Source of the DNA: a virus | DNA: 27,849 nt | Virus record (IMG/VR): IMGVR_UViG_3300022929_000157 | Coordinates: 1-27,849 of that record | Reading direction: 5' to 3' (one strand) | Part shown: in pieces, positions 3,941 through 27,094 of the stretch | Position numbering within the stretch: position 1 is the first letter of the stretch | Layout: every line of letters begins with the position of its first letter | Notes under the pieces: generated by a model | The model's database searches: none | Told to the model about the DNA's origin: nothing | Seen by the model: only the letters and a program-made list of their open reading frames with translations | Position numbers and translations under genes: made by a program

Positions 3941-4290
3941 TCTTCTTCACCTAACCCATTGACAGGCCATTTGTCGTTAAAATCTTTGGGGACATCAATG
4001 ACTTCAACTCCTTTTGGTGCAACGGGTGTGCGACCAAGCACAAAAACCAACTTGGTTTCAACGATTTCCTTAGCCATGCGACTATCGGGAATCCAATAGG
4101 TGTTTGCGTCGGGAAGTAGCGACAGGGGACTGTTGGGTTTGCGTGAAGCAGGTTTGGCTAAACGAACAAGCCATCCGTTGCGGGATAACCAATGTTCGGC
4201 TCGGTGACGAAGGTCTGCGACTTTTGCGCCTTCGGGAATAACGATACCTTTTTTGTTGAGTTGTTTAACCAATTTTGCACGCTCGCTCAT
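3937..4290 (-). CDS. Virion-module protein with SAP/HeH-like N-terminus
   Basis: 117 aa. Residues about 5-35 (KLVKQLNKKGIVIPEGAKVA followed by DLRHRAEHW) have the helix-extended-helix pattern of SAP/HeH/LEM-like motifs, which bind nucleic acid or occur at the ends of phage structural proteins. The rest is probably beta (IVETKLVFVLGRTPVAPKG). The ATG overlaps the stop of the 39-aa gene (ATGA). It lies between the decoration-like gene and the connector-like gene, so a small capsid or head-completion protein is plausible. Confidence 0.5.
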   Translation of the reverse strand: MSERAKLVKQLNKKGIVIPEGAKVADLRHRAEHWLSRNGWLVRLAKPASRKPNSPLSLLPDANTYWIPDSRMAKEIVETKLVFVLGRTPVAPKGVEVIDVPKDFNDKWPVNGLGEEE

Positions 4291-4406
4291 GCCTTCTTCT
4301 CCTTCTTTGCTCTACTACTCTTCTTTGGTTTTACCAGTAAATAACGGTTAGACTTGACATCCCAACGGTAAATATCACCGTTTTTGTCTGTCCATTCTTC
4401 AATCAC
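4287..4406 (-). CDS. 39-aa basic protein, GTG start
   Basis: 39 aa with a GTG start and an AGGTGA site 7 nt upstream. The N-terminal IEEWTDKNGDIYRWDVKSNR looks like a short beta hairpin and the C-terminus is strongly basic (KPKKSSRAKKEKK). The stop overlaps the start of the 117-aa gene (ATGA), which supports it as a real gene in the coupled virion operon. A basic tail could contact packaged DNA, but this is inference. Confidence 0.55.
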   Translation of the reverse strand: MIEEWTDKNGDIYRWDVKSNRYLLVKPKKSSRAKKEKKA

Positions 4407-4420
4407 GAAGAATCACCTAA

Positions 4421-4882
4421 TCAGTTGCCTTCAATGTATTCAACATTGATGAAGAAAACACCTGCCGTCAAAGCGGCGGTTGCCACGGTTGCGACAACTG
4501 GCGTAGGGACACCCATTTTCAAGGGAAGGTCGTTGGTTCCAGCAAAAACAGCATCCAAAGTTAGCGAAGCCTTACCAGTAGCGGCCTTGAAGGCATCTGT
4601 GTTGCCAAGCAGACCAAAAGCGACGGTAGCCGAACCACTTGAAGTGACTGCCGTTTCAATTTCAATCGTTGCGTTGGTGATAATCGCATTTTCGGGAATC
4701 AGTTGAGCCGTTCCACTTTCGTCATTGAGCGTGATAGCCCCAACTGCACCACCGTCAGTAGCAAACGAATACTTGAATGAAAGGTGCTTTGGTTGGTTCC
4801 CGTCAGTCTTGGCGTTGCTAACAGCGTCGTCAGCGAGATACTTCGTTTCCACGAAGTCTTGAAACTTTCGGTTTTGAGCCAA
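4421..4882 (-). CDS. Beta-rich capsid decoration/head-fibre-like protein
   Basis: 153 aa, start TTG at 4882 with GAGGTGA 5 nt upstream. The central part (IPENAIITNATIEIETAVTS followed by SGSATVAFGLLGN) matches a pattern often seen in marine phage virion proteins next to the capsid gene: an extended-beta segment after LIPxNAIIT, then ATVAFG. It lies directly downstream of the major capsid gene, where decoration, head-fibre or adaptor subunits are usual. The non-ATG start may lower its level relative to capsid. Role inferred from position and sequence style. Confidence 0.55.
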   Translation of the reverse strand: MAQNRKFQDFVETKYLADDAVSNAKTDGNQPKHLSFKYSFATDGGAVGAITLNDESGTAQLIPENAIITNATIEIETAVTSSGSATVAFGLLGNTDAFKAATGKASLTLDAVFAGTNDLPLKMGVPTPVVATVATAALTAGVFFINVEYIEGN

Positions 4883-6742: not shown

Positions 6743-8611
6743 GATGTCGTTCTCCTTTCGGTATTCTGTGTGAGAAGCGGTTTGACTTATCAAGGTTTCT
6801 TCGGTGGAGGCTGTTCTGCGAGCGCGAGGATGCCCTTTGGGAAGAAGGTCATTGTCTTGCTTGTAGTTGGGGTTAGATGGCCTACCGGTTCGTAGAAGGT
6901 AAAGGAAAGCATTGACTCGTGCGATACCCCAACCGTTGCGGGACATGTTAGGGGCGTGACTTGTGGAGAAAGCACCAGCACCACGACGGAACACAGTAAG
7001 AAGCGCACCCATAGAGGCTTTACTACCTTTACCCTTCTTGTTATGTTCCTGCATTTTGTTTTGAATGGTCTTACGGGTAGCGGGCGACACAACAATTGAT
7101 TTATTGGGTTTTTTGGCTGAACCGGGTGGATTTTTCTTAGAACCACGCCGTCGCTCGCTTGGCTTGGCTGGCGTTTTGCGTGGGTCATTGGGGCCGGGTC
7201 GTCCATGCTGTCCTCCGTGCTTCGCTTCAACTGTCTCTTCAATCTTTACCGCACTTTCAATGGTTGCGCGTGGATAAGCGGGCTTGTGGACGATGGCGAG
7301 ATGGTCAAAGGTAAAGTCCATGTCAAAGACCATGCCTTTTTCATTTGCTGAGATGGGAACGCCGTAGCCGCCAATAGATACACCGTAGTCGGGCTTAAGC
7401 CACATACCGGACTCCAAAGCCTCAAACAATTCGCTTCGTGCGACATGGGCAACATAGCGGACTTCATACCCCTCTTCTCCTTTGTCATCCATTTCAGCAG
7501 ACGCCACAATACCAACATTGGCTTCGTTGACGCCGCCATCGGTGTTGCGCTCAAAGCCAACAGCCTTTGGCTTTGGATGGTTAAGGGTTAAGTCTGCACC
7601 AAACATTTGCTTGACGGTGGCTTCGGCACCACGCTTTGTCAAGGCCCACTTGTTCTTGTTGAAACCCTCATGGAAAGCAACACCTTTTATTTCCATAATA
7701 GTATTGCCTGTGGATGCCTCAACAGTTGCGCTAATGGATTCAACGGATGCTTCCATTGTGACATTGACCGGCTTACAGGTACCATTGACCATTTCTTCTC
7801 CGATGGGGCATTCTTCCGACGCCTTCATCTTTTTATCATAGCCAGCGGTTTTTTCTTCATCCTCATCTTCGTGATAGGATGCGAGTTTTTTTCCTGTTTT
7901 TTCCTCGTATTCTTCGTGACTCTTACCGGGCATAAACACAGTATCGTCACCTTCCTTATGAGAATGAATGCCATCAAGACCTAACTCTTTTGCTCGGCTT
8001 TGCGCTTCGCCGGGATTATCAAAAACATCGCGACGAATCATTTTGGCTTCAACGGCTTCTGTGCAACCACAACCACAGCCACCTTCCTCAGCCTCAACGA
8101 CTTCTTCAATTCCTTCAAGGATTTCTCCTTCGTTTTGCATCCATTCATCATAGAGCAACCATGCTCTTTTTGCATCATAGGATTCGCCGTTTTCCGCTTC
8201 AACCTTGCGCCCACCTTCCCATTGTCGGCATGACCAATAGCGTGCTTTGGTTCGTGGGCCGGGACTGTCGCAGTTGTGGCGACTTCGGAAGTTTTTGCGC
8301 CGTTGTGGGTCATCACGCTTGATTTCCATGTTGGGGTCGCCAAAGCGAACAATCACAACACGACCGGCTTCGTTTTGCACATACACGGCAAATTTCTTAG
8401 GGCCACCGGAGGTGCGGAACGGTTTGTTGAGCGTCACCTTTTTTCCTTGATATTCGGCGGATTCAACAGTTTCGCTTTGCGCCTCGTCATACATAGAGTT
8501 GCAGACAGCCGCACGCTGTTGTGTGCTTGGGTATTTTGCTACGGTCTTATCGTCACCCATGCACCTATCCATGTAAGCGTCACGGCTTTCGCCATCACGA
8601 ACATCGGGCAT
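6269..8611 (-). CDS. Prohead maturation protease fused to scaffold, multi-domain
   Basis: 780 aa. Domains in order: an N-terminal module (about 1-42, YMDRCMGDD...QRAAVCNSMYDEA) and a basic module (about 60-131, LNKPFRTSGGPKKFAVYV to RYWSCRQW), both common in marine phage head proteins; a Glu-rich linker with a CGCGC cluster (179-183); and a protease domain (about 303-455) with candidate His345 (LTLNHP), Ser412 (DYGVSIGG) and the FDHLAIVHKPAYPRA signature at 435-449, as in prohead proteases. A basic linker follows, then a DUF5824-like module (about 505-597, RRGAGAFSTSHAPNMSRNGW, DNDLLPKGHPRA) and a C-terminal acidic coiled-coil scaffold (about 624-780). It cleaves and guides capsid assembly. 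The start has no clear ribosome site. Confidence 0.8.
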   Translation of the reverse strand: MPDVRDGESRDAYMDRCMGDDKTVAKYPSTQQRAAVCNSMYDEAQSETVESAEYQGKKVTLNKPFRTSGGPKKFAVYVQNEAGRVVIVRFGDPNMEIKRDDPQRRKNFRSRHNCDSPGPRTKARYWSCRQWEGGRKVEAENGESYDAKRAWLLYDEWMQNEGEILEGIEEVVEAEEGGCGCGCTEAVEAKMIRRDVFDNPGEAQSRAKELGLDGIHSHKEGDDTVFMPGKSHEEYEEKTGKKLASYHEDEDEEKTAGYDKKMKASEECPIGEEMVNGTCKPVNVTMEASVESISATVEASTGNTIMEIKGVAFHEGFNKNKWALTKRGAEATVKQMFGADLTLNHPKPKAVGFERNTDGGVNEANVGIVASAEMDDKGEEGYEVRYVAHVARSELFEALESGMWLKPDYGVSIGGYGVPISANEKGMVFDMDFTFDHLAIVHKPAYPRATIESAVKIEETVEAKHGGQHGRPGPNDPRKTPAKPSERRRGSKKNPPGSAKKPNKSIVVSPATRKTIQNKMQEHNKKGKGSKASMGALLTVFRRGAGAFSTSHAPNMSRNGWGIARVNAFLYLLRTGRPSNPNYKQDNDLLPKGHPRARRTASTEETLISQTASHTEYRKENDIMSEEHIVEENAQASEMEALQAELVLARAELENMRAMEAAKHEESRLSLVEAATSLGMKGHEDLSSETLESIIASWKESHPEPVVDMKPAEPAVASEESSPAPVSEKVVANYLNGKMVETPESLYSQAWNAWASAWNKTLSGVETSDDRIRAPRFEQL

Positions 8612-8636
8612 GGGCTATCCACATACCGAGTGACTT

Positions 8637-9092
8637 TTAATCTAATCGCCACAACTGTTGTCCGTCGTTTCGTATTTCATCATACAATTTTTCAGACATA
8701 ATGTCTCGGACATCCTCGTAGGATAGAACAGCCTTATAACCCAACTTTGTGACTACTTTTACGAGATTTGCCATGTGTGTGCCGTCAATTGGATTTAGAA
8801 CAGTTATTTTTGGCCTTAAACCAAGATGGTGATTGCGAACCGATAACAAATAGGAATGCCAGCCACTTTGCCGGTATTCGGGAAGAATAAAAGTATTGCC
8901 AACAAAATGAAAGTGCCCTAAGTCAAGGGAACCTGTGTAGCCTACGGGGTGCCCGTCATAACGAAGCACCCAATGAGACATCAAGTCAAAAATTTCGGGA
9001 TAGCCTTTTTCCGATGGCGTTTGGTATTCGTAAGGCCAAGCGTCGTGAAGAAAGCGATACTTCTTTACCGTTAATCCTCTTTCTTCTTCCAT
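8637..9092 (-). CDS. GNAT-like acetyltransferase
   Basis: 151 aa. The central segment (LMSHWVLRYDGHPVGYTGSL ... GNTFILPEYRQSGWHSYLLS) matches the GNAT fold: beta4 and then motif A, with RQSGWHSYLL in place of the acetyl-CoA-binding Q/RxxGxG/A loop. The C-terminal helix and strand (HMANLVKVVTKLGYKAVLSY) fit motif B. GNAT-like genes are frequent in phage head modules and their targets are mostly unknown. The start overlaps the membrane-protein gene by 22 nt. The usual Gly-x-Gly is altered, so CoA binding is not certain. Confidence 0.6.
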   Translation of the reverse strand: MEEERGLTVKKYRFLHDAWPYEYQTPSEKGYPEIFDLMSHWVLRYDGHPVGYTGSLDLGHFHFVGNTFILPEYRQSGWHSYLLSVRNHHLGLRPKITVLNPIDGTHMANLVKVVTKLGYKAVLSYEDVRDIMSEKLYDEIRNDGQQLWRLD

Positions 9093-14721: not shown

Positions 14722-16005
14722 TCAGCCGGTCATGTCCGACTCATGGAGGGGCTCAACAGCCAACCCAAGGTGGTGCGAGAACCCACCGTCCGCTTGGATG
14801 TCAAACAACACGGGGACGAGGCGGGCGGGGCGGTTGAAGGTGCCACGGTCGCCACGGACTTTGACGGCACCGTCCTTCATCATCTCACGCATCGCTTCAC
14901 CGACCGTCATGGTGGGCACGGTGCGGGTCGCCTTGACGCCAGCCTTGAACGCCCGACCGGAGAAGCGGAAGGCCCGCATCTCAAACCGGTGTCCGCCGAT
15001 GACGGAAAGGGTGGTCGAGAGTCCTTCCTCCTTGCTGGTCAGGAAGGGCAGGTGGGCGAAGTTGGCACCGGGCGTCATGTTGTGGCGTGGGTTGCCGCAG
15101 GTGGGGCAAGCGTGGCCGGCGTTCTTCACCTGTGCGTTTCCGTAGGTGGCCGTTCGTCCGCTGGTCTTGCAGGGTGAGCAGTACCAGTTGCCGGCGAACA
15201 CCGACGCCTTGAACCAGTCCATGAAGGACGAGGCGTTCACGGTGAACACGCCGGCGTCAACATCCAGCACTGAGCAGTTGTAGGCGTTGCCTTGCGTGGT
15301 GGTTTTGTCCGACTGCTCAAGCATGGAACGGTCATGTGCCTCCATCTCGCCCCGTAGGTGAACGAAGGCGTCCCGTAGCATGCCGACGGACTCAACCACG
15401 ACATAGCGGATAAGGTCGCCGGGGCTGAGGCCGAAGGCGTCGGCTTGCTCGGCGGTGGCGACCTTGCACCCTTCGGGCACCTCGTCCACATCTTGACCGG
15501 TGCGCTCACGGAGGGCACGGATGGCGGTTTCACGCTCGGCGGCGGCCTGTCCCTGCCATTGGTCAAAGGCCATGATGGCGGCGGCGGCACGGCGCACGGC
15601 TTGGCCGGCGGCGTTGGTGGCGGCGAGGGCGTCAAGCATCACAGCGTCGGCGGTGTTGATGACCCACGGGATGCCACGGGTGGTGGTGAAGTGCAGGCGG
15701 TAGACGCCAGCGGCCATGAGGCCGTTCACCATGTCGGCGGCGTCCTTCGCCTTCATCTTGAGGCCCACGAGGCCGGCAACGGCTCGCATGTCACCAGCCT
15801 TTGCGGCGTCCTTGACTCGGTAGCCGTTGACAGGGAGGCGGCGGGTGCCGGCTTTGTCCATGTCTGGCCGCAGGGTGTCAAGGAAGCGTAGCATAGCCTC
15901 CATGAGGGCGGCCAGCAGGGCGGGCCGCACAGTTTCGTTCTCTCCGCTGGTCATGGCTTGCACCATGTCCACGGGTTCTTCCTGTGGTTGGGGTTCGTTC
16001 TTCAT
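14722..16005 (-). CDS. 427-aa GC-rich protein of unknown function with zinc ribbon
   Basis: 427 aa from ATG 16005, chosen because GGAGGAC lies about 5 nt upstream; longer in-frame starts reach upstream of the promoter. The N-terminal two thirds is Ala-rich and helical (AVRRAAAAIMAFDQWQG). A zinc ribbon follows with C276-x2-C279 (YCSPCKTSG) and C300-x2-C303 (ACPTCGN). The C-terminal part is beta-rich (LSVIGGHRFEMRAFRFSGRA, ARLVPVLFDIQ). Codon usage is much more GC-rich than in the virion or accessory modules, suggesting separate ancestry. It is convergent with the terminase. I do not recognise a family. Confidence 0.7.
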   Translation of the reverse strand: MKNEPQPQEEPVDMVQAMTSGENETVRPALLAALMEAMLRFLDTLRPDMDKAGTRRLPVNGYRVKDAAKAGDMRAVAGLVGLKMKAKDAADMVNGLMAAGVYRLHFTTTRGIPWVINTADAVMLDALAATNAAGQAVRRAAAAIMAFDQWQGQAAAERETAIRALRERTGQDVDEVPEGCKVATAEQADAFGLSPGDLIRYVVVESVGMLRDAFVHLRGEMEAHDRSMLEQSDKTTTQGNAYNCSVLDVDAGVFTVNASSFMDWFKASVFAGNWYCSPCKTSGRTATYGNAQVKNAGHACPTCGNPRHNMTPGANFAHLPFLTSKEEGLSTTLSVIGGHRFEMRAFRFSGRAFKAGVKATRTVPTMTVGEAMREMMKDGAVKVRGDRGTFNRPARLVPVLFDIQADGGFSHHLGLAVEPLHESDMTG

Positions 16006-16098
16006 TTTCTGTCCTCCAGTGTTGCGGTTTCGGGTGTCGTTCATGCGGTTCGCTGTGTGTTGTTCCTCAGCCGCTACGCGGCATAGGGTAGGCATCCC

Positions 16099-16115
16099 GT
16101 ATATCAAGTTAGCCG
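16099..16115 (-). promoter_or_regulatory. Promoter of 427-aa gene with box abutting TATA
   Basis: On the minus strand TTGATATAC (16099-16107) is a good TATA box about 97 nt before the start codon, leaving a leader of roughly 70 nt. A GTTAGNCG box (16108-16115, in reverse orientation relative to this promoter) touches the TATA box directly. A protein bound there would cover the BRE/TATA region, so repression is the simplest reading. This differs from the 30-bp upstream placement in the accessory promoters. Confidence 0.5.
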
Positions 16116-16361
16116 GCATTTTCCTTGATTTTGGGCCGATTTGACCCCGCCGGAGGGCCGCCGGCGACCCCGCCGGACGGGCCGGACTACTGAACCAAGG
16201 GTTGGGTAGTCGGGCGGTCTGGAGGGTTAGACGCGTCTAACTTCGGCCCCGCCGAACGGCGGTTAGACGATGCAAAGTTAGACGAAAAAAAAGCAGTTAG
16301 ACGAAAAAATTTCCGAACGAAAAAGAGCCAAAAGTTAGACGAAAATACCTGAAGTTAGGCG
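16108..16361. repeat. GTTAGNCG box cluster 1
   Basis: Eight copies by hand: 16108, a perfect 16-bp palindrome GTTAGACGCGTCTAAC at 16226-16241 (two boxes), 16262, 16277, 16296, 16334 and 16354. Several carry an A-run directly after the box (GTTAGACGAAAAA). No gene is seen from 16120 to 16445. Confidence 0.85.
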
Positions 16362-16371
16362 ATGAGTCCGA

Positions 16372-16419
16372 CCCCCCCGCCTTGGCGGAGGGGCCGGAGG
16401 TGGACACCTCGGAGAGGTG
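16372..16419 (-). terminator. Paired GC hairpins at 3' end of 69-aa gene
   Basis: Same design as the pair at 14641-14693. A long GC hairpin (16372-16393, CCCC-C-CCGCC, TT, GGCGG-A-GGGG) is accompanied by a 6-bp hairpin CACCTC-GGA-GAGGTG (16405-16419). The odd position is again C-A on the plus strand and G-U in minus-strand RNA. It sits 27-74 nt beyond the stop of the minus-strand 69-aa gene. Confidence 0.55.
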
Positions 16420-16445
16420 GAATGCGTCAGCGGCGACGGTAGCCC

Positions 16446-16655
16446 TCAGCGGTGCTTGGCGGCGAGGCGGCGAGCCTCAGCACGGGCGTTGGGGCGGAGA
16501 GCGGCGCAAGCAGGGCACATGGGCACGCTGTCGGCGTCCTCGTCGTTGCGGAATTCGGCACGGTGGGCAGGGCCTACGGACTTGAACGGCTTGGCACCGC
16601 ACAGGTTCACGGATGCACCGGAGACACGGATGTGAAGGACACGACGGGCCATCAT
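16446..16655 (-). CDS. 69-aa zinc-knuckle protein
   Basis: 69 aa, basic. Cys motifs: NLCGAKPFK (one Cys near residue 19) and MCPACAALRPNARAEARRLA (CxxC near residues 47-50). It could hold one zinc with three Cys and a His. The ATGATG start overlaps the stop of the 85-aa gene. Its GC-rich codon usage matches the neighbouring 427-aa and 85-aa genes. A DNA-binding accessory role is possible; nothing specific is recognised. Confidence 0.55.
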   Translation of the reverse strand: MMARRVLHIRVSGASVNLCGAKPFKSVGPAHRAEFRNDEDADSVPMCPACAALRPNARAEARRLAAKHR

Positions 16656-16909
16656 GCCTCATCTCCATCTTCTGGCTCGGTGATTCCAAGGAGGGCGTCA
16701 ACCTGCTGGAGGGCGTTGTAGACGGCATGGGACAGGTCGCCAGCGGCGGCGGCCCATCCATCTTCAACATCTGCGTAGTCAGCAAGGGCACGGTGCAGGG
16801 TTGCACGGAGGCCCCACAGCCGGACACGGGTGGCCGGTGCGGGTTCACTGTGCTTCAACACGGCCGGTTCTCCGGCAATAGGGCTGGTAGGGTTTTGGTT
16901 CTCCTCCAT
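16652..16909 (-). CDS. 85-aa acidic helical protein
   Basis: 85 aa. A Pro/Glu-rich N-terminus is followed by helices (RLWGLRATLHRALADYADVE, LSHAVYNALQQVDALLGI) and an acidic end (EPEDGDEA). It is the first gene of a two-gene unit with the 69-aa zinc protein. A TATA box centred about 24 nt before the ATG suggests a leaderless mRNA. Helical acidic proteins of this size may be small transcription or replication partners, but no family is recognised. Confidence 0.6.
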   Translation of the reverse strand: MEENQNPTSPIAGEPAVLKHSEPAPATRVRLWGLRATLHRALADYADVEDGWAAAAGDLSHAVYNALQQVDALLGITEPEDGDEA

Positions 16910-16930
16910 GTAGTGAAGCAGGGCGTGGGG

Positions 16931-16970
16931 GTATATGAAGGGACACCCCCGCAGGGGAGTAGCGTCTAAC
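16931..16970 (-). promoter_or_regulatory. Box-TATA promoter of 85-aa gene
   Basis: On the minus strand GTTAGACG (16963-16970) is followed by TCATATA (16932-16938), whose first base is 32 bp from the first base of the box. The ATG lies about 24 nt from the TATA centre. The segment between box and TATA holds a small GC inverted repeat (CCCCTGCGGGG), not found in the other promoters. Confidence 0.55.
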
Positions 16971-17328
16971 CGAAGGCGGCGTCTAACCGCGGAGGTAGCG
17001 TCTAACCGCCGGAGGCGGTTAGCCGGCGCGAGTATTCGTTGTTAGTCGCGTCTAACGAATAACGGAGTAGGGATTGTTAGTCGCGTCTAACTATTAACGG
17101 CCACGAGCAAAGTTAGACGATGCGTGTGACGCTGGTTAGACGAAACGAAAAAAGTTAGACGAAAAATTGTTAGCCGAAAAAACCATCGGTTAGACGAAAA
17201 ATAGTTAGACGAAAAAAAAATAGTTAGACGAAAAAACTTCCGAAAAAGTTAGACGGTTAGACGAGGTGTCCCCCGCCCGCCAGCGAAAACGGGCGAGGGA
17301 CGGTTAGCCGGAGGGCAGAAGTTAGACG
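16963..17328. repeat. GTTAGNCG box cluster 2
   Basis: About 19 boxes by hand. Three inverted boxes (16963, 16980, 16999), one direct (17018), two 16-bp dyads GTTAGTCGCGTCTAAC (17041-17056 and 17076-17091, 35 bp apart), then a run of direct boxes at 17112, 17135, 17154, 17169, 17189, 17204, 17223, 17248 and 17256, spaced 8-25 bp and mostly followed by A-runs. Two more are at 17303 and 17321. It resembles an iteron array. No gene is seen between 16910 and 17331. Confidence 0.85.
17270..17299 (-). terminator. GC hairpin at 3' end of 82-aa gene
   Basis: Arms CCCCCGCCCG and CGGGCGAGGG enclose a 10-nt loop, 33 nt beyond the stop of the minus-strand 82-aa gene. The only imperfect position is C-A in plus-strand RNA and G-U in minus-strand RNA, as in the two hairpins further left, which supports a role in minus-strand transcripts. 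Confidence 0.45.
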
Positions 17329-17331
17329 GGC

Positions 17332-17580
17332 TCAGTTCAACTCTTCATTGAAGTGGTATACAATGTCGGAAAATTCTTCCTTGAGGACTTCTCGCGTGGT
17401 GTGGGGGCAAGAAACACAGGCATCGGAAGTAACTTCACGAGCGGCGACAGCGGCGAAGTATTGGCGGTCAGCGGGGGTTGCGTTCTCGTTAAGGTAAGCC
17501 CACACAATGCCAAGCAAGGCGGGGCCGGTAAGGTCTGCGAGGGCGTTTTCAAGGCGGACATGGGCTGGTGTTTTGCTCAT
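17332..17580 (-). CDS. 82-aa protein with CxxC
   Basis: 82 aa. N-terminal helical part (VRLENALADLTGPALLGIVW), then PADRQYFAAVAAREVTSDAC and a CVSCPH motif near residues 55-58, then acidic helices (REVLKEEFSDIVYHFNEEL). It is isolated within the box region with its own box-TATA promoter and hairpin, so it is a good candidate for a dedicated regulator or replication factor of the region. No helix-turn-helix is obvious and no family is recognised. Confidence 0.6.
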   Translation of the reverse strand: MSKTPAHVRLENALADLTGPALLGIVWAYLNENATPADRQYFAAVAAREVTSDACVSCPHTTREVLKEEFSDIVYHFNEELN

Positions 17581-17602
17581 ATTATACGGTAGGGCTATTG
17601 GG

Positions 17603-17640
17603 TATATAAGGTTGTTGATATAGCCGTATAATCGTCTAAC
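17603..17640 (-). promoter_or_regulatory. Box-TATA promoter of 82-aa gene
   Basis: On the minus strand GTTAGACG (17633-17640) is followed 31 bp later by TTATATA (17603-17609), which is centred 26 nt before the ATG at 17580. This gives a leaderless mRNA with the same layout as the forward accessory promoters. Confidence 0.7.
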
Positions 17641-18702
17641 CGCAGGTCGGCTAACACGGGGGAAGGGTAGCGATGGTTATTCGCGTCTAATTTTGCGTTT
17701 TTTGCGTATTTGTTAGCCGCATCTAACTTTTTATGCGTATTTATTAACTATGGTTAGCCGTTAATAAGTAAAGTTAGTCGCGTCTAACTTATAGGGCCCC
17801 CATGCAACGGTTAGACGAAATTTATTTGCTGTTTGCGAATAGTGTAGTATCGGCGGGCGATGCAATTTTTTTTCGGCTAACCACAACACTGCAAGCCGGA
17901 AAGTTAGACGATGGCCTTCGGCTAACAAACAGGGGCGCAGTAACACGGTTAGACGAAATAAATATCGTTTTTGCGAAGAGTCTACTATGGGCGGAACATG
18001 GACTTTTTTTCCGTCTAACCAGCAGACTGCGAGGCCATCAGTTAGACGAGGCTAACCGGCCCAAAAAACGCCTTTTCGGCTAACTCCCATCGGCTAACAA
18101 AATGCAACGCAGTGCAACGGTTAGGCGAAAAAAAACAGCAAAATCCTCCGAATGTAGACTCCTTGAAAATTCGTATTTTTTTACGGCTAACCAAGCAACT
18201 GAAAGCCTGTTTGTTAGGTGAGGCTAACCGGCTGAAAATGGCCTGTTTCGGCTAACCTGTGGCTAAGGTATTTCAACCTCCCCTGCTTCGTCTAACTTCT
18301 CCATCACACCCGAAAATTTTTAGACGCGCCTAACTTTTCGCTTGAAATTTATTGACTACAAAAATCGTTTTGACTACAAAAAAAGTTAGCCTCCACTAAC
18401 TGTGGTGTCCTTTTCACCAATCGCGATTTCAGCGGTCTTTAATTAGCCGTGGCTAACTGCGCTTGCCGGTTAGACGAAATTAGGCGAGGCTAACCGTGAC
18501 CGTGGTTAGACGAAATTAGATGCGGCTAACTACGCCCTGCGGGCGACGGGGTTAGACGCCCGTGCGTGACGCTGGTTAGCCGATGGCTTGGCGGGGTTAG
18601 ACGGTGTTCCGAATCGGGGGTTAGATGATGTCCCCAAAGTTAGCCGACCGGCAACGACGCCCTTTCTTTATGTTACAGACACGCAAGATGCGTGGTTAGA
18701 CG
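17633..18702. repeat. GTTAGNCG box cluster 3
   Basis: About 27 boxes by hand in both orientations over 1.07 kb with no credible gene. It includes dyads such as GTTAGTCGCGTCTAAC (17773-17788) and variants TTAGACGAGGCTAAC, TTAGGCGAGGCTAAC and TTAGCCGTGGCTAAC, the ordered triple unit at 17810-18220, and direct boxes at 18469, 18505, 18551, 18575, 18596, 18639 and 18695. The last box belongs to the first accessory promoter. Forward and reverse ORFs here only translate the repeats. Confidence 0.85.
17810..18220. repeat. Three tandem units with fixed box geometry
   Basis: Units begin at 17810, 17948 and 18120 (periods 138 and 172 bp). In each, a direct box with a following A-run faces an inverted box preceded by a T-run, and the outer edges are exactly 72 bp apart (17810-17881, 17948-18019, 18120-18191). 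The next direct box or its variant starts 22 bp after that edge (17903, 18041, 18213). The linker sequence has diverged, keeping a CGAA-GTNTA-like centre and an ACTGNNAGCC/ACTGNNAGGCC-like stretch. Confidence 0.8.
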
Positions 18703-18731
18703 AAAAAAAGCCAAACCGAACACCTTATATA
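18695..18731 (+). promoter_or_regulatory. Accessory promoter P1
   Basis: GTTAGACG (18695-18702) with an A-run, an ACCGAA element ten bases before the TATA, then TTATATA (18725-18731). The first base of the TATA is 30 bp from the first base of the box. It drives the unit 18766-20677. The first start codon is about 38 nt from the TATA centre and has a GAGG site, so this mRNA has a short leader. Confidence 0.75.
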
Positions 18732-18765
18732 GTAGTAAAAATATGTAGATGTGAGGCGAAAAGAA

Positions 18766-20493: not shown

Positions 20494-20677
20494 AACTCGC
20501 TGTGGCATCTGTGGAAACTTCGGCCTATTCGGCGGTGTCGTCCTGCACCCCCGCACGCGTCGCCCGACGACCCGCTGTTCTCGTTGCCGAGATGATGAGG
20601 CGGTTAGCCGAAAAAATGCCGAATCGGAGGTATTATATACCTCATCAAACCATGTTGATTTAGAGGTGAAAGAATGA
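20486..20677 (+). CDS. 63-aa zinc-ribbon protein, TTG start
   Basis: 63 aa starting at TTG 20486 with GGAGGTG about 7 nt upstream and an 8-nt overlap with the previous gene. C6-x2-C9 (RCGICGNFGL) and a second CxxC (TRCSRCRDDE) form a zinc ribbon. The last third of the gene is the complete P2 promoter, so its C-terminal residues are partly dictated by promoter sequence. Ends the P1 unit. Confidence 0.55.
   Translation: MTETRCGICGNFGLFGGVVLHPRTRRPTTRCSRCRDDEAVSRKNAESEVLYTSSNHVDLEVKE
20603..20639 (+). promoter_or_regulatory. Accessory promoter P2
   Basis: GTTAGCCG (20603-20610), A-run, then TTATATA (20633-20639), first bases 30 bp apart. It lies inside the 3' end of the 63-aa gene. The next start codon is about 38 nt from the TATA centre, with GAGGTGA before it. 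Confidence 0.75.
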
Positions 20678-21862: not shown

Positions 21863-21921
21863 GTTAGACGGAAAAATGCCAAACCGAAGGTATTATATAC
21901 CCCTCCCGACAATGGGTATAT
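21863..21921 (+). promoter_or_regulatory. Accessory promoter P3 with second TATA
   Basis: GTTAGACG (21863-21870), ACCGAA ten bases before the TATA, then TTATATA (21893-21899), 30 bp from box to TATA. A second TATA-like GGGTATATAG at about 21912-21921 could give an alternative start. The ardA leader is about 45 nt with GGAGG before the ATG. P2 and P3 are nearly identical around the TATA, suggesting duplication. Confidence 0.75.
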
Positions 21922-24002: not shown

Positions 24003-24039
24003 GTTAGACGCAAAATACGCAAACCGAAAGCCTTATAAG
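24003..24039 (+). promoter_or_regulatory. Accessory promoter P4
   Basis: GTTAGACG (24003-24010), ACCGAA ten bases before the TATA, then TTATAAG (24033-24039), again 30 bp from box to TATA. The leader holds a small hairpin GCGGG-GGCAA-CCCGC (about 24065-24079). Drives the DUF932 unit. Confidence 0.75.
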
Positions 24040-24119
24040 GGCAACCGAGTATGTGTATTTAGAAGCGGGGGCAACCCGCCGACAACCAAAAACACAAACA
24101 AAAAATGGAGATGAAAAAT

Positions 24120-26556: not shown

Positions 26557-27011
26557 AGGCTTACCTCTACCACTTTGACAATTCGTCTAACCCTGTGTGG
26601 TATGCTGGCCTCGGCGTGCCGTTCAAATTGACGACCGATTTTTCTTTCGCAAAGTCCGTTGACTTCGGTTCCGTTGGAACCTCCATGCTGTTGAAGCAGT
26701 TGGAAAAGTTTTACGGCAAACATTTCTATCAAGTCTCACTTCAAGACGCTGTTCCCTCTCCCGATTATCGTTGTGCTTCCTGTTCCACCTGCTGGACTGA
26801 GGATGAGAAAAAGGCGACGATTGACTCCGAGATTCATGTTCACTTGGCTTCTCCTTTGAGAACCAAATCCGCCCCTTCTTTTGCCGAAAAAATAAACAAC
26901 GCTCGCAGGTGCCTTTCCTGTCGTGTGCTTTTGTGCGGCGACTGCGCCCCCAACATCAACGCACGAAGCAAGAAGTGTGTCGTGTGCAAGCCGAAGCGGA
27001 GGCGTGGTTAG
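26553..27011 (+). CDS. Multi-Cys zinc-binding protein
   Basis: 152 aa. The N-terminal 65 residues are alpha/beta (KAYLYHFDNSSNPVWYAGLG), followed by C74-x2-C77-x2-C80 and then C120-x2-C123 (CLSCRVLLCGDC, also C128/C131) and C142-x2-C145 (KCVVCKPKRRRG), resembling a treble-clef or B-box-like zinc cluster. A chance CGTCTAAC box match lies at 26584-26591 inside the gene. Its TAG stop is formed by the P5 box itself. Function unknown. Confidence 0.6.
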   Translation: MKAYLYHFDNSSNPVWYAGLGVPFKLTTDFSFAKSVDFGSVGTSMLLKQLEKFYGKHFYQVSLQDAVPSPDYRCASCSTCWTEDEKKATIDSEIHVHLASPLRTKSAPSFAEKINNARRCLSCRVLLCGDCAPNINARSKKCVVCKPKRRRG

Positions 27012-27043
27012 GCGTAAATCCGCCCTACCGACAACCTTATAAA
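27007..27043 (+). promoter_or_regulatory. Accessory promoter P5
   Basis: GTTAGGCG (27007-27014), ACCGAC ten bases before the TATA, then TTATAAA (27037-27043), 30 bp from box to TATA. The TAG stop of the upstream gene is part of the box. The leader has a short GGGC-GGGAA-GCCC hairpin before GGAGG. Confidence 0.75.
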
Positions 27044-27094
27044 GTGCAACCCCCATCTCTATGTATGGGCGGGAAGCCCGATGGAGGAATGAAA

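Follow-up and report, generated by a model that had tools for sequence, protein, structure and literature searches.

A fixed-geometry array of drifting boxes as candidate control centre of a putative tailed archaeal virus

The window (the whole stretch of DNA analyzed here, 27,849 nucleotides of the IMG/VR virus record IMGVR_UViG_3300022929_000157) carries 68 short boxes (about 60–68) with the consensus GTTAG[A/C]CG between positions 16108 and 18695, in addition to about six isolated boxes. In related viruses, the boxes have changed in sequence, but the distances between the key boxes have not. With moderate confidence, we read the region as being under the control of a box-binding protein (binding is inferred) that regulates early genes, forms a phased complex at an origin or enhancer core, and drifts in specificity together with its sites.

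How might such a control centre work in a tailed archaeal virus? A zinc-cysteine DNA-binding protein (14722–16005, minus strand) would recognize the box. At the early promoters, one box bound 19 or 29 bp 5' of the archaeal TATA element would likely recruit the host TFB/TBP, while the promoter of its own gene has an inverted box directly against TATA, through which the protein would shut off its own synthesis. Dozens of protein copies would be bound in the array, at fixed spacings. In each of three cassettes, two divergent 22-bp pairs, each with a GCAGT motif that does not drift, would flank a 72-bp interval and with it make up an ordered nucleoprotein complex, probably an enhancer-like core or an origin of replication. 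The boxes would change jointly with the protein, and both would travel between viruses as a cassette, giving each virus a private specificity that resembles an immunity or incompatibility group.

Geometry of the array

The initial annotation had described three diverged tandem units of invariant geometry, and its measurements are correct: the outer edges of the two facing boxes lie exactly 72 bp apart in each unit (Table 1), the next plus-strand box follows at exactly 22 bp in all three (17903, 18041 and 18213), and the unit periods are 138 and 172 bp. It had missed an upstream box that is likewise exactly 22 bp off (17788, 17926 and 18098), which makes the unit symmetric, (-)22(+)72(-)22(+). 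Also unnoticed before was that the three units are only the core of the far larger array, which further contains 16-bp convergent palindromes, tandem runs in steps of 15, 19 and 20 bp, and 26-bp pairs. When the box positions were jittered by ±10 bp, three complete cassettes arose in the window in 0 of 2000 trials (null mean 0.001).

Table 1. Coordinates of the array, its cassettes, the box-bearing promoters and the candidate protein gene in the window
Feature	Positions	Strand	Details
Candidate box-binding protein gene	14722–16119	-	465-aa ORF; likely start 16005 (427 aa); CSPC...CPTCGNP
Promoter of box-protein gene	16093–16115	-	inverted box (16108+) abutting TTGATATA
Dense array	16226–18702	.	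GTTAG[A/C]CG boxes in both orientations, ~2.5 kb
Same-orientation tandem box run	17112–17263	+	CGAAAAA after many boxes
Promoter of small gene 17332–17580(-)	17603–17640	-	box, CTTATATA at 30 bp
Cassette 1, (-)22(+)72(-)22(+)	17788–17903	.	facing pair 17810+/17881-; ACTGC 17888–17892
Cassette 2	17926–18041	.	facing pair 17948+/18019-; GCAGT 17937–17941, mirror ACTGC 18026–18030
Cassette 3	18098–18213	.	facing pair 18120+/18191-; GCAGT 18109–18113, ACTGA 18198–18202
Promoter, early genes to the right	18695–18732	+	box; CTTATATA 29 bp after first base of box
Promoter	20603–20640	+	isolated box GTTAGCCG, TTATATA; register as at 18695
Promoter 5' of ArdA-like gene	21863–21900	+	isolated box GTTAGACG, TTATATA; register as at 18695
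Promoter 5' of gene for 325-aa phrog_1221 protein	24003–24040	+	isolated box, CTTATAAG at 29 bp
Promoter	27007–27044	+	isolated box GTTAGGCG, CTTATAAA at 29 bp

Are the equal unit lengths simply inherited, the units being recent tandem copies that have not yet been hit by indels? Aligned without gaps, the first two units share 72% identity, and the tails of the second and third units do so too; within the window alone, duplication could account for the equal lengths. This explanation is excluded by the relatives.

Drifting boxes and fixed spacing in relatives

A terminase scan retrieved 50 relatives from IMG/VR (designated below by L numbers). Among those with a recognizable array, the exact layout is kept with the alternative boxes GTTAGCCG, GTTAGTCG, CTTAGTCG, TTTAGTCG and AATAGTCGC. 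The GTTAG[A/C]CG box of the window recurs in L115; L074 has GTTAGC[C/G]G, L082 has GTTAGTCG, L079 has CTTAGTCG, L083, L088, L095 and L089 have TTTAGTCG, L098 has a loose [T/A]TTAGTCG, and L099–L103 have AATAGTCGC. At least six box sequences are thus found among viruses whose terminases are 76–97% identical, on an unchanged spacing scaffold. Pooled over 10 representative genomes, convergent 16-bp pairs numbered 83 (4.2 expected), convergent 72-bp pairs 23 (2.4 expected) and divergent 22-bp pairs 53 (6.1 expected), and complete cassettes were missing from nearly all jittered controls. Eight of these 10 genomes keep the 72/22 spacing, each by way of two or three 72-bp pairs; it is partial in L103 and absent from L098, where the 72-bp cassette is missing despite the presence of the box and the candidate protein.

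In L079, L089 and L099, the 72-bp interiors share only 29–36% identity with those of the window, compared with 25–29% for shuffled sequence. Since the interiors are near the shuffled level, recent common ancestry does not explain the equal unit length, and since the layout is exact despite saturated interiors and different boxes, the spacing is under selection, which bears out what had been proposed from the window alone. Other intervals in the array vary, unlike the 72 and the 22 bp. As a cause of the spacing, neutral duplication is refuted.

In L101 and L103, the first unit measures 83 bp, an increase of 11 bp, or about one helical turn; together with the promoter distances of 19 and 29 bp, which are 10 bp apart, this points to helical phasing. 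The site spacing is thus both fixed and helically phased (72 bp, 83 bp in two relatives), as is expected of origins built on initiator sites. An alignment of 21 units places GCAGT ahead of the left box, at -11 to -7, and the mirror motif, ACTG(C), past the right box, at +7 to +11. The A, G and T of GCAGT are kept in 17–20 of these 21 units; box positions 1 and 6, in contrast, vary between viruses. By inference, GCAGT may be read by a host factor or by a slower-evolving part of the complex. Given the spacing conserved in relatives, an ordered nucleoprotein complex, as first suggested, is still the best reading, with no binding measured.

It could also be supposed that the facing boxes pair, with each 72-bp unit forming structured RNA or extruded DNA. 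The facing boxes are indeed largely complementary, the 72-bp units fold with z-scores of -0.6 to -3.0, and the facing arms co-change between viruses. However, boxes without a partner, in tandem runs or alone at promoters, drift identically, which argues for a site recognized in trans; a trans-acting protein is then a simpler cause of the co-change than an RNA stem. The initial annotation had considered a stem unlikely because the facing arms do not compensate each other. This premise stands for units 1 and 3, which have a mismatch at box position 6, but not for unit 2, where the arms are fully complementary; nor does it extend to the comparison between viruses, in which the arms do co-change, although so do the partnerless boxes. 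In RNA folding, the boxes do pair with each other, but the predicted interior pairing differs between the units, leaving no common interior fold, and a search of Rfam gave no match. The mark of a structured RNA, compensatory pairing that is not common to unpaired copies, is missing, and we regard RNA or cruciform stems as very improbable, in agreement with the earlier conclusion.

A second, far tighter box spacing is seen only in L082, where 7-bp repeats GTTAGTCGTTAGTCGTTAGTCG overlap (L082:8234–8343). L104 has a tandem run of the box-like AGTAGTC[C/G]G beside the gene for a 363-aa protein. The far relatives L109 and L114 (terminase 58% identical) have a different repeated motif, CCTACGAAGT, without 72/22 spacing, and in both a dispersed motif pair, TAGNCCTACGAAGT and AGAGAGAT, occurs near TATA boxes (L114:13370–15700 and L109:11668–14992). 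L051 (IMGVR_UViG_3300037400_003374), found via the palindrome pattern, was set aside, its array (AGTTAGN6CTAACT, 20-bp phase) being unrelated. In that genome, AGTTAGNNNNNNCTAACT palindromes are densely arrayed in exact 20-bp multiples (4019–4850) and adjoin a run of TGTGGATAA repeats that resemble DnaA boxes, perhaps an origin or operator array of another phage.

Promoters carrying boxes

The promoters of the window have an archaeal form, CTTATATA, and in several genes an ATG lies about 30 bp downstream of it; judging from this distance, leaderless starts are likely for these genes, including the small gene at 17332–17580(-). Upstream of rightward genes, the register from box to CTTATA is 29 bp in the window, L115, L074 and L103, and that from box to TATA is 19 bp in L082, L079 and L088, one helical turn less. 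The isolated promoter boxes match each genome's own version of the box. The structural genes of the window showed no box promoter of this type. A box that lies upstream and in a phase-dependent position suits an activator touching TFB/TBP, and an occluding repressor fits less well; activation itself is inferred. At the promoter of the box-protein gene, the situation is different: in seven genomes (the window, L115, L082, L075, L079, L073 and L099), an inverted box lies directly against TATA, whereas in L083/L088/L095, L086/L089 and L103 the box is forward or cannot be clearly made out. The inverted arrangement is the expected sign of autorepression, which is likewise an inference.

Does the array do anything beyond the control of transcription? 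It might consist of operators alone, whether as an enhancer of early genes or as an immunity region of the repressor type, and have no role in replication, and we hold this to be a serious possibility, if not the preferred one. The boxes stand at promoters in a fixed register, their co-drift with the protein and the exchange of the cassette recall Cluster A mycobacteriophages with their repressor/stoperator systems (PMC6550527), and the evidence for an origin consists of position alone. In a 67-kb relative, the GC-skew minimum, at 42 kb, falls about 4–5 kb from the array (46.5–48.4 kb), but it is confounded with gene strand. On the other hand, the boxes of the 72-bp cassettes face each other with no TATA box inside, about 60 sites far exceed what promoters need, and the upstream box position is ill-suited to plain TBP/TFB occlusion. 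We retain the reading in which the protein serves both early promoters and an origin or enhancer core, the origin role being inferred.

A partition (centromere-like) or DNA-packaging site, on which a spreading protein loads at the boxes, would also explain why the boxes are dense and in both orientations, and the terminase gene is only 2 kb from the array. Partition and incompatibility specificities also drift. This possibility nevertheless seems improbable, since it leaves the boxes at early promoters unexplained, and no ParA-like ATPase was found among the proteins scanned, which cover only part of the genes.

The candidate box-binding protein

The protein most likely to bind the boxes is one of 427–465 aa with paired cysteines that belongs to no known family; binding is inferred, with no binding data. 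Profile searches of Pfam, PHROGs and PDB with the 465-aa protein gave no significant match, none showing a DNA-binding fold, and membership of a known transcription-factor or initiator family is not supported. The invariant residues of the family include three cysteines. Its gene adjoins the array wherever the contigs of relatives cover the locus, except in the far relatives L104, L109 and L114. These have Cys-rich proteins near the same place without detectable homology to the box protein: in L104, the 363-aa protein (7711–8802), with paired cysteines, is in the box-protein position, and in L109 and L114 a different Cys-rich protein adjoins the terminase.

The candidate protein is only 27–63% identical to that of the window in viruses whose terminases are 92–94% identical, and its gene is the hypervariable island of the genome. 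Its divergence follows the box. Identity reaches 88% only in L115, which has the box of the window, and is 63% with GTTAGCCG, 36% with GTTAGTCG, 25–32% with the other TTAGTCG boxes and 16–18% with AATAGTCGC, at terminase identities of 78–95%. In the box-protein tree, L082 groups with L083/L088/L095, but in the terminase tree it groups with L074–L079, and each data set rejects the grouping of the other (AU test, p = 0.005 for the box protein and 8e-5 for the terminase; the groups were named only after the trees had been seen). Protein and box have therefore probably been swapped between virus lineages as a module.

In the absence of binding data, another viral protein could bind the boxes, and two small genes (16652–16909 and 17332–17580) lie inside the array itself. 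Their 85-aa and 82-aa products do not follow the box, as the 465-aa family does: the former is just 44% identical in L115 despite the same box, and the latter occurs in one further genome only, with a different box. We consider this alternative unlikely, and the 465-aa protein remains the candidate.

Comparison with known systems

For the diversifying specificity, the closest analogue is found in the stoperators of Cluster A phages (PMC6550527). In Cluster A repressor/stoperator systems of the L5 and Bxb1 type, a virus protein has many asymmetric sites, and specificity groups diversify among close relatives, with homotypic, mesotypic and heterotypic immunity; the sites lie scattered across the phage genome and, in bacteria, halt transcription elongation (PMC6550527, PMC9283540). 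Many sites and co-divergence of box and protein are seen here as well, while binding by the 465-aa protein is inferred. The window virus differs in that most sites are gathered in a single compact array with fixed geometry, the promoters are archaeal, and the zinc-cysteine protein is unrelated. Viral transcription factors known from archaea, such as F55, SvtR, AvtR and C68, act on TATA/BRE promoters, F55 with tandem sites and autoregulation, but the RHH factors F55, SvtR and AvtR are small proteins with few sites (PMC5569661). The present candidate, in contrast to these three, has more than 400 aa, paired cysteines and dozens of spaced sites.

The array also recalls viral origins that consist of inverted initiator sites with fixed spacing. 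At HSV oriS/UL9, EBV oriP/EBNA1, SV40 and papillomavirus origins, inverted high-affinity sites bracket an interval and act in a helical-phase-dependent manner, often with a second, transcriptional role. The window array similarly has inverted sites bracketing an interval and helical phasing. It belongs, however, to an archaeal tailed virus, has three tandem cassettes, and its box is replaced genome-wide between relatives; moreover, no initiator or helicase domain was recognized in the system.

Why would such a system change its sites at all? Rewriting dozens of sites across a genome is normally hard, since the protein and all sites must change jointly. The selective cause can only be inferred, but superinfection immunity, incompatibility and satellites are testable causes of the fast drift, and how DNA-binding specificity evolves can be put to a direct test in this system. 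For the master regulator and origin-binding protein of uncultured marine archaeal viruses, so far unknown, the box protein is a concrete candidate. With the means at its disposal, the initial annotation could not have seen the box drift, the archaeal promoters or the candidate binder. Only tentatively, we raise the possibility of a new viral specificity module, in which an undescribed zinc-cysteine origin/enhancer binder and its roughly 60 boxes, in a phased array, would be repeatedly rewritten and swapped as a self/non-self cassette for early transcription and replication.

The virus and its host

The window encodes a terminase, a portal, an exonuclease and an ArdA-like protein. Profile matches to the terminase large subunit (also Pfam Terminase_6C) and portal indicate HK97-type packaging and head, and archaeal TATA/BRE promoters together with archaeal-type replication genes mark a tailed archaeal virus (Caudoviricetes). 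In a 67-kb relative (L116/G001), the family B DNA polymerase (PolB) is closest to those of haloarchaeal tailed viruses, and the RFC small subunit to archaeal RFC small subunits. Magroviruses and Poseidoniales viruses are tailed dsDNA viruses of marine and brackish water, with PolB in the magroviruses and presumed marine archaeal hosts (PMC10160649, PMC13108676). The window likely represents a tailed virus infecting marine archaea, as magroviruses are presumed to do, without a match to a host genome. A search of 84,980 species genomes with the terminase found no match and no relative in host genomes. A phage collection yielded only remote terminases, no reference magrovirus, and no match to the 465-aa protein or the MCP, so that, compared with magroviruses and Poseidoniales viruses, the window has no close terminase or MCP match there. 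In the accessible part of the literature on these viruses, no report of such an array was found.

The chaperonin encoded by G001 is GroEL-like; a thermosome-like identity was considered and ruled out. Chaperonin genes were also located at L117:2568–4127, with a GroEL-like (group I) product, and at L121:10295–11878. The ends of the L117 contig (IMGVR_UViG_3300017730_000006) have about 24 nt in common, probably making it a complete genome of about 67 kb, and its start (positions 1–14) resembles an Illumina adapter remnant.
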